Both the position numbers and the translations under genes were made by a program. The notes beneath the pieces are model-generated. The model saw only the letters and a list, made by a program, of their open reading frames with translations. It had not been told where the DNA came from and did not search any database. This document shows, in pieces, positions 325-7,667 of a stretch of DNA of 64,000 nucleotides (position 1 is its first letter; the number at the start of each line of letters is the position of its first letter). This stretch comes from Owenia fusiformis (taxonomy: Eukaryota; Annelida; Polychaeta; Sabellida; Oweniidae): assembly GCA_903813345.2 (NCBI GenBank), contig CAIIXF020000001.1:58204270-58268269 (forward strand), read 5' to 3'.

Positions 325-636
325 TTAGTTTTAGTCGCCTTGCTGATATTGTGATATCAATGAAATGTTAGCTAAGTTCTTTTCAACCTCTCTTAATTGC
401 CAGCTTTAGTTGAGCAATTTTCTAGATTGGGTGCCTTTATACAATCTCCTGGAGATCTTCCAATACCCTATACTCACAGGGGTTTGCATCAGGGCTATTA
501 TCAGTTCAGGAACATTTTGCAAATTATGCTTATTTCTCATGGCACACCACATGGTATGCAAATTATGATTTAATATCAAAAATTAAAAAAGTTAGAGCAT
601 TTTGAAAAAAAAGTGGTGTTTTTTTGGCCCACCCTG
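325..636 (-). mobile_element. Truncated copy of the CAGGGTGGGCC mariner-type MITE
   Basis: In reverse it starts CAGGGTGGGCCAAAAAAAC at 636 and continues with sequence closely similar to the whole copy at 40471-41074 (shared CAATACCCTATACTCAC, CTTAATTGCCAGCTTTAGTT). Its other end is missing, next to the TACGAGGGG end at 322. Confidence 0.75.
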
Positions 637-639
637 TAT

Positions 640-1020
640 ATATAAGTAAAAATAAGAAGAACTAATAAAATACGTTTGAAAATCTAAACATGTTTCTTTA
701 TTCCTCAGTAGATTTTTCAAAAATGAGAACAAGAGGTATACAGGTAAGTATGACGTAATATTAATATAATTAATTAAACGTCATGGAAACCAATAAACAA
801 TTTATTTGTTTAGTTTTGGTTTAAGATATATACAGGTAAGTATGACGTAATATAAATATAATCCGCATATATAGTAACCAATAAACAATTTATTTGTTTA
901 TTTTTGGTTTAAAAATATACAGGTAAAAAGGTATATGACGTAATATTAATACAATTAATTATTGTCAGTAGTATTTATCCATCACGTACAATTTAACCGT
1001 TACATGTATAGTAACTATAC
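640..1020 (-). repeat. PLE tail, inverted left arm
   Basis: Reverse complement of 3442-3720 with extra sequence. It holds about three units of roughly 90 bp, each with AAACAAATAAATTGTTTATTGG and TTACGTCATA...CCTGTATA. It ends with a hammerhead-like motif and the GTATTTTATTAGTTCTTC tail. Confidence 0.8.
674..721 (-). ncRNA. Hammerhead-ribozyme-like motif in PLE tail (copy 1)
   Basis: On the minus strand: stem I strand TTTGAAAAATCTA, core CTGAGGA (fits CUGANGA), a 5 nt spacer, GAAAC, AT, GTT (NUH cleavage triplet), then stem I strand TAGATTTTCAAAC. Stem I pairs over 12 positions with one bulged A. Stem III would be only AC/GU closed by two bases and stem II is nearly absent. PLEs are known to carry minimal type I hammerheads. 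Activity is not shown. Confidence 0.6.
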
Positions 1021-1060
1021 TATACTATACTATACTATACTATATATATATATATATATA
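1021..1060. repeat. TATAC/TA microsatellite
   Basis: TATAC repeated about five times, then a TA run, directly at the left end of the TACGAGGG MITE. Confidence 0.85.
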
Positions 1061-2088
1061 TACGAGGGTTGATCACAAAGTTCTCATAATATCTCTCTAA
1101 TTTCTTTATTTTTCAATATATTCTAATGAAATTTTCACAGAATGTGCAGCATAGAATGTCTTATCAATTCAGCAAAAAATATTTAGTTTAACAGAAATAT
1201 TAAATAAGAAATGGTTGCCATGGTAACGGCAAATCAAGGCACCTGGGGCAAATAAAAGTAATTGAGAGAATGGCTCAAATTAACCATGTTAACACACATA
1301 ATAAACTCTCATAAATTACCAAACACGTTAAAATGTTAACTTGAATATGTTGTAAAGTGCTTTTACTATTAAAAAAATTGATCATGTGAATTGTGTGATG
1401 TCATAGGGGATGCTTCCATGCTTCATTAGATGTGATACCAGAGTCTGAGTCTCAAAGCTAATGATCAGAAATGACTGAGGAAGAGAATGCAATAGATACA
1501 GAGATCTTCAGAAAAATATAATTCATACTGATAAAAGTTATGTTAAGTTTGTAAGATCCTTTGGTCAGACTAAACATGATTTAAAACAAATATATTGCTA
1601 AGATATCAACAAAATTACACCCTGTGTGTGGTCTGTACATGTCAAAAATGAACTAAAGGGGCAAAATCAATTTTCCTCAGGATATTTGACAAAACAGTCA
1701 TGTGGTCTAACAGTCACTACTAATGAAGCATAACAATCATCCAATATGGGATCACACAATTCACATGACCACTATAATAGTTCACAACAGTCAAGAGCAC
1801 ATATTATTTGACAATTTACTGTGTTTGATAGCTTATTTGACAACTTTTTATGTATTTAAACATGATTAATGAGGGCTATTTTAGCTGTGTTTTTTATTTG
1901 CCCCGGGTGCCTTGATTTCAAGTTACTATGGCAACCATTTCTTATTTAATGTTTCTGTTATTCTAAATATTTTTTGCTGGATTAATAAAACATTCGGTGC
2001 TGCACATTCTGTGAAAATTCCATCGGAAAATATTGAAAAATGAAGAAATTAGAGAGATATTATGAGAACTTTATGATCAACCCTCGTA
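1061..2088. mobile_element. TACGAGGG MITE with very long inverted arms
   Basis: Left end TACGAGGGTTGATCACAAAG, right end its inverted copy with one change in the first 30 bp. Arms of about 370 bp each (1061-1440, 1715-2088, with gaps) leave a centre of about 270 bp with no transposase. Flanking TA and ends are mariner-like. It is inserted in a TA-rich stretch of the PLE. Confidence 0.8.
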
Positions 2089-2124
2089 TATAAGTCAGCA
2101 CAGTATATATATATACTGATATCA

Positions 2125-3441
2125 CGTGGTTACCCCAGAGGCCTGATACACGATGCAATCAAAAAAGCCAGAGAATATACTAGACATGATCTACTATACA
2201 GAAACAACAATGACAACAAAAAGGGTGATAAAAAAATCCCTTTTATTTCAACATTCAACCCTAGAAACCCAGACTTGTTTTCAACTTTAAAAGAAAATGC
2301 AGTTGTTCTTAAAGGAATATTCCTTGCCAGACCCTTTCTCTCTTGATATGGTAGCTATAATCATATACATTGTATATAGTTTCCATATTTAGCAAAACAT
2401 GGGAAAATGTTTTAATATGGTCAATATTGATCATTTAAAAATCTAGTGCTTATTTCCAGTGATCTGCCATCTTTTAAGATTTCTTGCAGGAAGTGATGTC
2501 ATCAACTCTCAACTTCTATAACCTTGCCCATAACAGTATAGGAAAGTAGCACAAAATCACTTCTAGACAAGTGATCATTACTTTCTGTGCAAAAATATTT
2601 TCAGGGCTTGTCAACTTAGAATAAAAGAAGAGATTTTCAGAAGGATTAAATAAGATACAAAGTTGAAAAATAATATTTAGCTGGTTTTGTAATTCTTAAT
2701 AGCTCCTCACCTAATGCTATATGCAAAGTTGAGAGTCGATGACATCACTTCCTGTGTGAAATTTTAGAAGATGGCAGCTTACTGGAATTGAGCATCACAT
2801 TTCTAAGTGATCAAATTTGACCATATCAAAACATTTTTGCGTGTTTTGCTAAACATGGCAAGCATATATATGGTTATAGCTACCATATGAGGAGAGAGAT
2901 GGTTTGGCAAGGAATATTCCTTTAACAATGATAAAAAAATGAGAGACGTGATCACTAAAAAAACATTTTTAAAGAGTAAACGTCAAAGCAGAAACTTGAA
3001 AAGAATCATAACTTCTTCTGCTTTCAAATCTAATAAAGAGGATATAACTGTGATAAAATGTGAAAAACCAAGATGTGGCTGCTGTGTTCATATTTCTAAT
3101 GATATTAAATACAATTAGGCAAAACATTCAACGCCAAAGTATCAATGAATTGTTAATCAAGAAACGTATTATATGCCATGAAATGTGTTGGATGTAACGA
3201 GATTTACATTGGACAAACGGGTGACAAACTTTCGAACAGGGTCCGGGTCCATAAGCAACAAATTCTTGACCCTACTGTCCGTATGTTGCCAGTAAGCGAG
3301 CATATTGATAATTGTGCTACTGGACATGAACCAAAATTCACAATTATGCCTTTTTTTAAATTTCATGAAGACGATATCGAACAAAGAATCGCCATGGAAA
3401 ATCATTTTATTAACATTTTTCAACCCAAACTAAACAAATAA
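2125..3441 (+). pseudogene. PLE C-terminal coding remnant with GIY-YIG endonuclease domain
   Basis: The 3178-3441 part reads CVGCNEIYIGQTGDKLSNRV, then HKQQI, SEHIDNC, and ENHFINIFQPKLNK. This is a GIY-YIG fold with a CxxC just before YIGQT and the closing Glu-Asn/His segment, typical of PLE C-termini. Upstream (from about 2130) PRGLIHDAIKKAR, PFISTFNPRNPDLF and KCEKPRCGCC match the linker between PLE reverse transcriptase and endonuclease. It is interrupted by the TTAA-flanked MITE and is not a whole gene. Confidence 0.85.
2309..2925. mobile_element. TTAA-flanked MITE (piggyBac- or Kolobok-type) inside the PLE
   Basis: TTAA at 2309-2312 and 2922-2925 bounds a 609 bp element with ends AGGAATATTCCTTGCCA in inverted orientation. 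The terminal inverted similarity goes on for about 200-230 bp (shared GGTAGCTATAA, AGGAAGTGATGTCATC, GACTCTCAACTT-type blocks). There is no coding capacity. TTAA duplication is typical of piggyBac and Kolobok transposases. Confidence 0.8.
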
Positions 3442-3720
3442 ATTGTTTATTGGTTACTATACATGTAACGGTTAAATTGTACGTGATTGATAAATACTAC
3501 TGACAATAATTAATTGTATTTATATTACGTCATATACCTTTTTACCTGTATATTTTAAACCAAAAAATAAACAAATAAATTGTTTATTGGTTACTATATA
3601 AGCGGATTATATTTATATTACGTCATACTTACCTGTATATATCTTAAACCAAAACTAAACAAATAAATTGTTTAGATTTTCAAACGTATTTTATTAGTTC
3701 TTCTTATTTTTACTTATATA
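3442..3720 (+). repeat. PLE tail, right arm
   Basis: Directly follows the GIY-YIG stop. It has two to three units of the same 3' sequence as the left arm and the same GTATTTTATTAGTTCTTC end. It lacks the stretch that carries the hammerhead core in the left arm; the join is at TGTTTA. Confidence 0.8.
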
Positions 3721-3769
3721 TATATATATATGATAAAAAGATAAATACATGTAAACAAAATATGAAAAG

Positions 3770-3816
3770 ATTTAAAAACTAGACATGTTTCTATATTTCC
3801 TCAGTAGTTTTTAAAT
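3770..3816 (-). ncRNA. Hammerhead-ribozyme-like motif in PLE tail (copy 2)
   Basis: On the minus strand: ATTTAAAAACTA, CTGAGGA, a 6 nt spacer, GAAAC, AT, GTC (cleavage triplet), TAGTTTTTAAAT. Stem I is a perfect 12 bp helix whose sequence differs from copy 1 on both strands together (compensatory change), while the core is identical. Stem II and stem III are as short as in copy 1. Confidence 0.65.
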
Positions 3817-3905
3817 TTTTATAACAATTCAACAGTTTAATTGTATGCAATATATGTGACGTCATCGTATTAATTACCATAGTGATCTAACCAGAAATTA
3901 AATCT

Positions 3906-4067
3906 TTATTTATCTAATTTTGGTTTAAAAACATTAATAAAGTGTTTTTCCATTTCCAGTCTATACAAAACATCATCATTATTGAATTTATAAAAAGGCA
4001 TGACCTTAAATTTAGGTGATACATTTTTAGCGCAATTATCTATGTGTTCGCTGACCGGCAGCATAAC
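3906..4067 (-). pseudogene. Second PLE GIY-YIG C-terminal fragment
   Basis: Reads VMLPVSEHIDNCAKNVSPKF then KVMPFYKFNNDDV and EMEKHFINVFKPKLDK-stop, parallel to the end of the plus-strand copy but clearly diverged (about half identical). So it is a different PLE family member, truncated upstream at about 4067. Confidence 0.8.
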
Positions 4068-5039
4068 CTCTCTGGAGAATGAAAAATGGGAAAATTTGGA
4101 GTCATAAGAATAAATTCAAGTAACATGTCTTATCATGTCTTATATACACGTGATCCCCCCCTCCATCCACTCCCCCCTCCATCCAATATTAACTTATTTT
4201 GAAAATCTTTTGTATAACGCATTGAAACTAACTTTAGAAAGTGAGCAATGTCATTAGTATTGTGAAAATAACGTCCCTTATACCTATTTATTCCAGGTCG
4301 TGTAGACCATTGTTGCCCGATTTATAGCAAAAACATTGACTTTTGCACGTTGGTGATGATGCGCCTTTTTTAATAGATCTCATATCTTAGAAGGGTATCA
4401 GTTCAAAAAAAATACTAGATGACCTAACATATTTTGCCATGCACTGCGCCTATTCATTTGGCGATTCAGTTGTAAATTTACTCTTGAAAAAATAAATCTT
4501 CCAAATTTGTTGAGTTTTCTTGCAGAAATCGCCTAATCCCCCCTCCATCCATTTTGTACGATCACCGGGCGTGATACCGCCGTGTTTACATTAGGGGATT
4601 AGAAGAGTTTACTTTTATTTAGGTATGCAAGCAATATCAATATTAGGCCTTCATGCATATCCTCGTGTGTACAATCAGCATGCCCTTCAATATTATATAA
4701 ACCAGGCTATTCAAGTACTACATAATGTACACTATTTATGTGTGTACTACATGGGAATACGATTCCCTGGGAAACAAAACACAAATACTTTTTATATGTT
4801 CAAAATGAGCCATTTGATTGATGCATACACTTAATAGCTCATTAATAACATCTACAAAGTATATCTAATAGTAATTTTCAATTTCAATGGTGAAACTTGC
4901 CTGTTTACGATTATACGGGAAATCAACATGGGACGAAGATTGTTCACCTTCCTGACTTACCTCTGAAGCCTGTACCTTGTAATCTCTTTATATAGGTTAG
5001 CGAGAGCGCTGCGCCTGCGCAGTTTTAAACTTTGGCGCA
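4068..5039. other. Gene-free stretch between PLE and minisatellite
   Basis: AT-rich, with two CCCCCCTCCATCCA pyrimidine tracts at about 4145-4185 and 4538-4552. No gene, transposon end or RNA recognised. Confidence 0.5.
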
Positions 5040-7128
5040 CACTTTAAGTCCATTTACCCTGTTTACTGAACCTTTGGTCGACCACGAACCCTGTTTATTC
5101 AAGCCATTGACATGTCAACCATCCAACCTATTTACTCAAGCCATGGAAATGTCAACCATCCACACTGTTTATTCAAGCTATTGACATGTCAACCATGAAT
5201 CATGTTTACTCAAACTTTGGTCAACCATTTTAAGTCCATTTAACCTGTTTACTCAACCTTTGGTCAACCATGAACCCTGTTTATTCAAGCCATTGACATG
5301 TCCACCGTGAACCCTTTTTACTCAAGCCATTGAAATGTCAACCATCAACCCTGTTTATTCAAGCCATTGAAATATCAACCACCAACCCTATTATTCAAGC
5401 CATTGAAATATCAACCACCAACCATTTATTCAAGCCATTGAAATGTCAACCATCAACCGTTTATTCAAGATATTGTCATGTCAACTACGAACCATGTTTT
5501 CTCAATCCATTGACATGGGTTTATTTAAGCCATTTAAATGTCAACCATCAACCGTTTATTCAAGACATTGTCATGTCAACTATGAACCATGTTTTCTCAA
5601 TCTATTGACATGGCAACCATCAACCCGGTTTATTCAAGCCATTGTCATGTCAAACACCAACCCTGTTTATTCAAGCCATTGAAATATCAACCACCAACCG
5701 TTTATTCAAGCCATTGAAATGTCAACCATCAACCGTTTATTCAAGATATTGTCATGTCAACTACGAACCATGTTTTCTCAATCCATTGACATGGGTTTAT
5801 TTAAGCCATTTAAATGTCAACCATCAACCGTTTATTCAAGACATTGTCATGTCAACTATGAACCATGTTTTCTCAATCTATTGACATGGCAACCATCAAC
5901 CCGGTTTATTCAAGCCATTGTCATGTCAAACACCAACCCTGTTTATTCAAGCCATTGACATGTCAAACACCAACCCTGTTTATTTAAGCCATTGAAATGT
6001 CAACCATCAACCGTTTATTCAAGATATTGTCATGTCAACTACGAACCATGTTTTCTCAATCCATTGACATTGCAACCATCAACCCGATTTATTCAAGACA
6101 TTGAAATGTCAACCACCAACCCCTGTTTATTTAAGCCATTTATATGTCAACCATCAACCGTTTATTCAAGACATTGTCATGTCAACTATGAACCATGTTT
6201 TCTCAATCCATTGACATGGCAACCATCAACCTGGTTTATTCAAGCCATTGAAATGTCAACTACCAACCCTATTTTTCAAGCCATTGAAATGTCAAAAACC
6301 AACCCTGTTTATTCAAGCCATTGAAATGTCAAAAACCAACCCTGTTTATTCAAGCCATTGAAATGTCAACCATCAACCGTTTATTCAAGACATATGTCAA
6401 CTATGAACCATGTTTTCTCAATCCATTGACATGGCAACCATCAACCCGGTTTATTCAAGCCATTGAAATGTCAACCATCAACCGTTTATTCAAGACATTG
6501 TCATGTCAACTATGAACCATGTTTTCTCAATCCATTGACATGGCAACCATCAACCCGGTTTATTCAAGCCATTGAAATGTCAACCATCAACCGTTTATTC
6601 AAGACATTGTCATGTCAACTATGAACCATGTTTATTCAAGCCATTGACATGTCAAACACCAACCCTGTTTATTCAAGCCATTGAAATGTCAACTACCAAC
6701 CCTATTTTTCAAGCCATTGACATGTCAAACACCAACCCTGTTTATTCAAGCCATTGTCATGTCAAACACCAACCCTGTTTATTCAAGCCATTGACATGTC
6801 AAACACCAACCCTGTTTATTTAAGCCATTGAAATGTCAACCATCAACTGTTTATTCAAGACATTGTCATGTCAACTATGAACCATGTTTTCTCAATCCAT
6901 TGACATGGCAACCATCAACCGTTTATTCAAGACATTTTCATGTCAACTTTGAACCGTTTACTCAAGACATTGTCATGTTAGCCATGAACCCTATTTTCTC
7001 AAACCTTGGTCAACCATTTACCATATCTACTCAAACACTGGTCATTGGCCAACCAGAAGCCCTGTTCACTCAAGTCATCAACACTGGTCAATTCAACTAC
7101 AAACCCTGTTTACTCAAAAGTCATATCC
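5040..7128. repeat. Minisatellite of 35-37 bp units with higher-order structure
   Basis: About 55 head-to-tail units of the type CAACCATCAACC / GTTTATTCAAGCCATTGA / CATGT. Sub-variants (CGTTTATTCAAGACATTGTC, ATGTTTTCTCAATCCATTGA) recur in order. A block of about 276 bp, eight units, is repeated almost exactly (5443-5718 and 5719-5994). The frames left open across it (repeating MKCQPSTVYSRHCHVNYEPC) come from the repeat and are not taken as genes. Confidence 0.93.
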
Positions 7129-7259
7129 AATGAATGAATATACATGTACTGATAAAGATCTTACCTTCAGTCTCTTTATTTGGTCAAAATCCGCTAAACA
7201 AACGAAGGATCTTCTATTTCTAAAAGAAATCTTTTTTTTCGCAGTTTCCTTCCTGGAAG

Positions 7260-7667
7260 TTGATTTCCGACAGAAATAGTATGAGATATGTGATATGGTT
7301 AGACAATTTGTTGCTCGCTTCTGACACAGGAAGTTGTATTAAGTCCTTTTTGGGCCCTAACGGCCTTCTGCCCTCCCCCAATCTCACACAGCAGTCCCTA
7401 GGAAGATACAGTGCCACACCCCTTGCGGTTAGGACTTGTTCTTGTTCAAATGAGTCTATTGAAGACGAGCAGCACTCTCTAATTGACTGTCCCTTACATC
7501 AAACATTATGTTTTAACCTTTTTCAAAGAGCCAGAGATACAATTCCTGACTTTGAAAACCTTTCATCATTAGGGAAATACTGCAATACATGTAAAATGTG
7601 CACCCCCTCATTACAACGTATACTAGCAAAGACAATTGGTATCATGATGACAAATAGACTCTTATAA
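7260..7667 (+). pseudogene. Probable LINE reverse-transcriptase C-terminal fragment
   Basis: An open stretch of about 135 codons with RTCSCSNESIEDEQHSLIDC then PLHQTLCFNLF. The C-x-C...E-x-x-H...C-P pattern is that of the cysteine/histidine region after the reverse transcriptase in many non-LTR retrotransposons. It has no natural start codon and no upstream RT motifs, so it is a 5'-truncated remnant. An unrelated hypothetical protein cannot be excluded. Confidence 0.45.

Follow-up and report, generated by a model that had tools for sequence, protein, structure and literature searches.

The tails of Penelope-like elements (PLEs) in the genome of Owenia fusiformis carry a small RNA motif with the core of a hammerhead ribozyme, a covarying stem I and a preference for palindromic centres, in which a stem II with a G-C base is lacking and which stands at both ends of one of these elements. 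Two copies of this motif lie on the minus strand of the window, by which we mean the whole stretch of 64,000 nt that was analysed. We consider the motif, with a probability of about 0.6, to be a natural, dimer-forming variant of the type I hammerhead that lacks stem II and processes PLE RNA through a predicted cleavage. As such, stem-II-less PLE motifs would provide a test, in nature, of the minimal size of a hammerhead, and a set of families that keeps core, stem I and palindrome without stem II shows which of the parts evolution retains.

The mechanism that we infer includes cleavage, use of the dimer in the cell and help from the PLE protein. In this model, a selected type I hammerhead variant would reside in the terminal repeats of a set of PLEs, with stem I closing the motif, CUGANGA and GAAA forming the core, and a linker of 5-12 nt, unpaired or with few pairs, standing in place of stem II. 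Stem III would form between two copies via a self-complementary hexamer (ACAUGU, ACUAGU or ACCGGU), and two ribozymes, for example those in the 5' and 3' terminal repeats of one transcript, would thus pair as a double hammerhead. This structure would cut after position 17 and release unit-length RNAs from tandem or read-through transcripts, and a PLE protein may assist the dimeric ribozyme.

Sites in the window

A preliminary description of the DNA, made from the sequence alone, had reported two minus-strand sites with a hammerhead core and a stem I, and the sequence reads exactly so at both places (Table 1). Their assignment to PLE tails is likewise borne out, as site 2 lies near the end of a GIY-YIG open reading frame (ORF) and the tail of site 1 is 99% identical to both ends of an element with reverse transcriptase (RT) and GIY-YIG domains at locus L031. 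The ORF end near site 2, the stop codon of which is located 101 nt upstream of the ribozyme motif, shares 65% identity with positions 36-87 of the family A GIY-YIG query, and has no Pfam match on its own.

Table 1. Features of the window, with positions counted from its first letter and minus-strand parts given in the direction of reading.
Feature	Position	Strand	Basis or remark
Site 1, PLE family A ribozyme motif	674..721	minus	sequence; leave-out covariance model E 0.00067
Site 1 stem I, 5' and 3' strands	721-709, 686-674	minus	8 contiguous pairs, 1 bulged A, 4 more pairs
Site 1 core, CTGAGGA and GAAA	708-702, 696-693	minus	
Site 1 linker, ATAAA	701-697	minus	unpaired
Site 1 palindrome, ACATGT	693-688	minus	last A of GAAA shared
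Site 1 position 17, T	687	minus	predicted cleavage between 687 and 686
Family A 3' tail, from the predicted cut (beginning of next unit) to the insertion end	644..686	minus	conserved in family A copies
88-bp tandem repeat of family A 3' UTR, upstream of ribozyme motif	737..926	minus	Tandem Repeats Finder
Site 2, PLE family B ribozyme motif	3770..3816	minus	sequence; leave-out covariance model E 0.32
Site 2 stem I, 5' and 3' strands	3816-3805, 3781-3770	minus	12 contiguous pairs
Site 2 core, CTGAGGA and GAAA	3804-3798, 3791-3788	minus	
Site 2 linker, AATATA	3797-3792	minus	
Site 2 palindrome	3788-3783	minus	last A of GAAA shared
Site 2 position 17, C	3782	minus	predicted cleavage between 3782 and 3781
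Family B PLE ORF, C-terminal end on the GIY-YIG side	3909..4085	minus	59 codons
GIY-YIG endonuclease fragment from a further copy of family A, in opposite orientation	3163..3438	plus	Pfam PF01541, E 1.8e-06
3' UTR and tail of the opposite-orientation family A copy, without ribozyme core	3439..3720	plus	sequence comparison

For the bare core pattern, the window has two occurrences where 0.34 would be expected by chance, and since two sites were also reached in 4 of 100 shuffles, the core by itself is suggestive only. A covariance model built from 14 sequences of other families, with families A, B and D excluded, recovered both sites (E values for 64 kb in Table 1), and gave no further match in the 64-kb window up to E 10. 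The preliminary description had proposed a check with the Rfam hammerhead models; these matched neither site, even at E 10. Rfam gave nothing on the whole window, no hammerhead in positions 600-4000 at E 10 and none in nine family loci even at E 10, while a genome search with RF00163 left no match among 73 scored of 48314 first-look candidates. Surveys based on Rfam would thus miss stem-II-less elements of this kind.

Several other features of the window were recorded. At 3664-3690 on the plus strand, a PLE 3' UTR and the tail meet within TGTTTA, a shared stretch across the predicted cleavage site, and the core is lost; the junction is located in this 6-nt microhomology and is no proof of cleavage. 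Two long inverted-repeat elements adjoin PLE fragments at 1057-2092 and 2306-2928, with arms of 255 nt (85%) and of 143 and 65 nt (83-88%), and a degenerate array of a 37-bp satellite with longer repeat periods extends over 5043-7017.

Relatives in the host genome

Relatives were sought by pattern searches of the host genome (498 Mb), each accompanied by a reversed-pattern control. The pattern CTGANGA-N3..12-GAAACATGTH gave 66 sites against 26 in the control, the TA-centre pattern 37 against 27, the CG/GC-centre pattern 14 against 6, and the pattern with a free centre 178 against 153, and as the last three of these counts are near those of the controls, raw counts are no proof in themselves. 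The centres of the 178 sites were AT in 66, TA in 37, CG in 13 and GC in one, with 61 non-palindromic. When the flanks of all 66 AT, 37 TA and 14 CG/GC sites were read, a stem I (at least 4/5 pairs) was present in 93 of the 117 palindromic sites; the remaining 24 look like chance sites or broken copies, and one of the 93, with a 3-nt linker (L134), is probably a chance site as well.

Sorted by eye, the 93 stem-I sites fall into at least eight tail families, A to H. Family A has the 5-nt linker AUAAA, found in 28 genome sites with stem I, and families B (AAUAUA) and E (UUUGAA) have linkers of 6 nt. The linkers are 8 nt long in families F (AUAAAAGU) and H (UUUAAAAU), 9 nt in D (AGGAAUAAC) and G (UUUGAACAA), and 11-12 nt in C (UUUUUAAAUAAA).

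Head-to-head inverted ribozyme pairs were seen in families B, C and H (L026, 1500-1560; L194; C5:7674562-7674699), including nine family C loci which were apparently amplified together. A separate repeat, perhaps a SINE, carries CTGATGA-GGTTTAGCAACC-GAAAC, that is, a core and a stem II without the palindromic stem III (L068); at L095 one stem II letter is changed.

Core and stem I

The central claim of the preliminary description, a hammerhead-like core with a covarying stem I, holds beyond the two window copies for at least eight families, and the compensatory stem I pairing for which it had proposed to look in other copies was found at all five inner pairs. In an alignment of 20 sequences hand-picked across the families, 19 of them with a palindromic centre, 95% of the cells of the inner five pairs are paired; the corresponding share is 63.4% in shuffles and does not exceed 62% when the partner strand is slid. 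All five pairs have changes on both sides, amounting to 37 double-change cells against 12.4 in shuffles, although the families are related, so that the counts are not independent and the covariation events are fewer than the cells. Without families A, B and D, 3 of 5 pairs covary among 14 sequences (13 cells against 3.4). As a further control, stem I halves were re-paired with those of other sites, and in the AT class 548 of 2326 such combinations pass, compared with 47 of the 66 true sites; in the TA (1321/1960) and CG (812/1419) classes this control is weak because the families share GUU/AAC.

Position 7 of the hammerhead core is a free position. Its letters at the 93 sites are A in 44, G in 44, T in four and C in one, and the G which had first been thought unusual is therefore as common as A. 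The core letters CUGANGA/GAAA and a position 17 other than G were imposed by the search pattern, and their constancy is thus partly ascertained; the core was also recovered, in sense and partly decayed, in PLE tails by a one-mismatch search together with the covariance model. With G at position 17, the genome holds 29 sites, and a family linker is present in one of them (family B, C1:1954215), compared with the 93 stem-I sites that have T, A or C there, which is a modest test as there are only eight families at the family level. Separately, a repeat of about nine copies with variants, CTGATGACTGGTTTAAGAGAAACGTGTG, has a hammerhead-like core with G at position 17 (for example C1:10478312, C1:16770856, C7:13726650).

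Absence of stem II

At the base of stem II (10.1/11.1), a G-C pair occurs in none of the 93 sites, where the letters are AA in 36, UA in 29, UU in 13, AU in 12, UG in two and AC in one. The almost absent stem II that had been noted in the window copies is therefore general: counted contiguously from the core, there are no stem II pairs in 50 sites, one in 18, two in 16 and three in nine, the last all belonging to family C and all made of A-U pairs. Folded alone, the linkers gave no structure in any of ten sequences. A search of the host genome for sites with a G-C closed stem II returned 44, against 59 in the control; flanks were read for 30 of these 44, where a stem II of 3-5 pairs is present in a few and GAAAC-NN-GU with a self-complementary centre in none. 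The only search that covered hammerheads with a longer stem III was the one with RF00163.

A9 and the linker together read as the polyadenylation signal AATAAA at window positions 697-702 (minus strand) and at loci of families A, C and F, in all 46 of the 93 sites with a stem I, and this overlap may possibly serve two functions.

The missing helix could have been replaced by pairing of the linker elsewhere in the element, a pseudoknot that would complete the ribozyme in another topology. Linkers are A/U-rich and tails U-rich, and matches of 4-7 pairs exist in all eight families tested, yet own-tail matches are no better than those to the tails of other families (mean 5.4 against 5.7, permutation p 0.84; 60 nt either side), and we regard this arrangement as very improbable.

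Another reading starts from the same absence and holds that stem II decayed in an ancestral, dead lineage, with the families related by descent alone and no present selection on the motif. Many copies are indeed truncated or old, and some palindromes and stems are broken. The families differ, however, in stem I and palindrome in compensating ways, which decay does not produce, and copies of families A and E contain long open frames, such that we find this explanation improbable. The alternative raised in the preliminary description, that the window motif is a decaying one, fares no better, given that the stem-II-less form is common to all families found, including A and E with open frames of 825 and 800 codons.

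Palindrome and dimer folding

Real copies tend to have self-complementary centres, a tendency that pairing of the hexamer with its counterpart in a second copy would predict. Among the first 100 listed of the 178 sites, for which the flanks were read and which include 39 of the 61 non-palindromic sites, a stem I was found in 52 of the 61 sites with self-complementary centres and in 6 of the 39 others (Fisher p 2e-12). With distinct core strings counted once, again in the first 100 of 178, the figures are 17 of 26 palindromic and 6 of 36 non-palindromic (p 1e-4). Among the six non-palindromic sites with stem I are broken copies from families A, C and F. The centres of the 20 aligned sequences are AU in nine, UA in seven, CG in three and other in one, where 19 of 20 palindromic is a biased figure since these sequences were hand-picked, and the 100-site test supplies the unbiased one.

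Within one site, stem III comprises two pairs around a 2-nt centre, and in the dimer it comprises six. A single copy would have neither a stable stem II nor a stable stem III, because a two-nucleotide hairpin loop cannot close the latter. Families A, B, E, F and H were cofolded, and the unconstrained cofold of two F copies is exactly the double hammerhead, with stem I, a six-pair stem III, a free position 17 and open linkers (-22.7 against 2 x -8.7 kcal/mol). Two A copies form the same helices, but A14 additionally pairs with U17 over each cut site (-19.0 against 2 x -5.0), and for B, E and H other dimers win and no complete double hammerhead was obtained. Thus the palindrome preference, together with the cofold of F and in part that of A, makes the dimer proposed in the preliminary description likely, and is consistent with a motif that would work only as a dimer.

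Link to Penelope-like elements

A GIY-YIG query gave 37 matches in the host genome, and 1-kb stretches downstream of 19 of them were taken, three of which are known family A loci. Families E and F were first found in these 19 stretches by the one-mismatch motif search. The covariance model has a match in 10 of the 19, all in sense, which is a result on placement and not an independent score, because every one of these families went into the model and decayed copies are among the 10. Most of the tail families were observed next to the ends of Penelope-like ORFs; for D and H no adjoining ORF end was seen.

At L031 the motif stands at both ends of one element, with the C3 of the two copies at 7301 and 2709 flanking ORF1 and ORF2; the placement at both ends is known from this locus, the other families having been seen at the 3' end only. 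Here, ORF2 is an open RT-GIY-YIG frame of 825 codons (Pfam RVT_1, E 6.6e-08; GIY-YIG, E 5.5e-06), and an upstream frame of 463 codons, at 5788-7173 on the minus strand, overlaps the RT-endonuclease frame and matches no Pfam family at E 0.01. The distance from the stop codon to C3 is 823 nt in L031 and 318 nt in two other copies, a difference that suggests an insertion. In family E, one copy has an open frame of 800 codons beside the ribozyme motif.

Where element copies begin

The 5' ends of element copies were compiled from 37 of 40 rows for E/G, 38 of 50 for C, 41 of 55 for A and 30 of 31 for H, after dropping rows that end before the cut, inverted halves (nine in C) and repeat-unit matches (14 in A). 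Ends that lie 8-3 nt before C3, at the outer edge of stem I, account for 10 of 30 in E/G, 8 of 34 in C, 6 of 21 in H and none of 16 in A. Those within 1 nt of the predicted cut amount to none of 30 in E/G, 3 of 34 in C (at two loci), 1 of 16 in A and none of 21 in H. In family C, 17 of 34 informative 5' ends fall inside the core, largely owing to one amplified inverted repeat, which also makes up most of the peak at +3 (11 rows). The remaining ends are scattered. As few 5' ends lie at the cut, uncleaved RNA is the usual template of the copies and cleaved RNA a rare one at best.

Short copies consisting of ribozyme motif and tail that start at or near the outer stem I edge belong to families C, E/G and H (L121, L125, L127, L145, L149, L011, L019, L062, L001, L039, L005, L002, L128 and L148), and this edge is possibly a transcription start. 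We tentatively entertain a more specific form of the hammerhead reading, which we think has a smaller chance of being right than of being wrong, in which the motif is a natural counterpart of the engineered minizyme, is completed only by palindrome-paired copies, probably on its own protein, and is transcribed from the outer stem I edge, so that the ribozyme would form the very 5' end of the RNA.

Two loci were considered as retro-copies of cleaved RNA. L177 (C1:18065720-18065980) contains two tandem 40-nt units, both of which start at the predicted cleavage site and reach the end of the tail; a partial unit of 9 nt that starts likewise precedes the pair, and the left edge is ambiguous because ATGTA immediately precedes the first unit. 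At L176, the core seems to have been deleted between the two strands of stem I. Neither these loci nor the 5' ends support retro-copies as a proof of cleavage.

The prevalence of uncleaved templates bears on the idea that a former ribozyme has been kept as a structural signal, in which palindrome and stem I pairing between two RNAs, or between the two ends of a single one, would aid binding of the PLE protein or the start of reverse transcription, and nothing is cut. It agrees with the loss of stem II, with the share of copies in E/G, C and H that starts at the outer stem I edge, and with the pairing of position 17 in the lowest-energy dimer of family A; moreover, a PLE protein from Anolis inserts RNA equally well with a dead hammerhead, and a dimeric PLE protein is predicted (PMC11167929). 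Such a signal needs stem I and the palindrome, but not the exact CUGANGA/GAAA with a free position 7 and a scarce G17, an argument that is limited by the core letters being part of the search pattern. On balance we judge a purely structural role unlikely, and retain the hammerhead with predicted cleavage as the preferred reading.

Comparison with known systems

According to the passages of the literature that were available, the known PLE hammerheads lack helix III and tertiary contacts, and their role is unknown (PMC6155905, PMC7761336, PMC6466107, PMC7229834) and has been termed a mystery (PMC7761336). As described in reviews of the work of Lunse, Weinberg and Breaker (2017), they lie in the terminal repeats of PLEs, have the type I topology and a diminished stem III that includes a palindrome, occur in tandem copies and are modelled as dimers, in all of which they resemble the motif presented here. 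By the same review descriptions, what they lose is helix III and tertiary contacts and not stem II, whereas here stem II is absent or has 1-3 pairs with no G-C base. The PLE hammerhead of Anolis differs from the families here in keeping stem II and loop II; in vitro it requires its PLE protein in order to cleave, and insertion does not depend on this cleavage (PMC11167929).

In engineered minizymes, helix II is replaced by a linker of 4-5 nt between A9 and G12, and they cleave, usually less well (PMC544870). The likeness is confined to family A, with its unpaired 5-nt A9-G12 linker, the linkers of the other families being longer; furthermore, the minizyme is a designed trans-cleaving oligonucleotide, whereas the motif here is genomic and has a palindromic stem III. 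The open-licence literature, from the scope of which the main papers on PLE hammerheads (2014, 2017) are excluded, yielded in the portions available no natural minizyme or stem-II-less hammerhead.

The hammerheads of avocado sunblotch viroid and of newt and axolotl have a weak stem III and are active as double hammerheads, as is proposed here, but they are not PLE elements. Helices I and II are not clearly delimited in the viroid, and in one axolotl class a helix II is kept, unlike here, though it is weaker and has a U-U mismatch at its base. Maxizymes dimerise through a shared helix II, whereas the helix shared in the motif here would be stem III. The maxizyme is a dimer of stem-II-less hammerheads, and the two units proposed to dimerise here lack stem II likewise (PMC10766806). 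Compared with these systems, the motif would represent a new variant of the PLE hammerhead, with a missing stem II common to all families found, and would act through a predicted cleavage.
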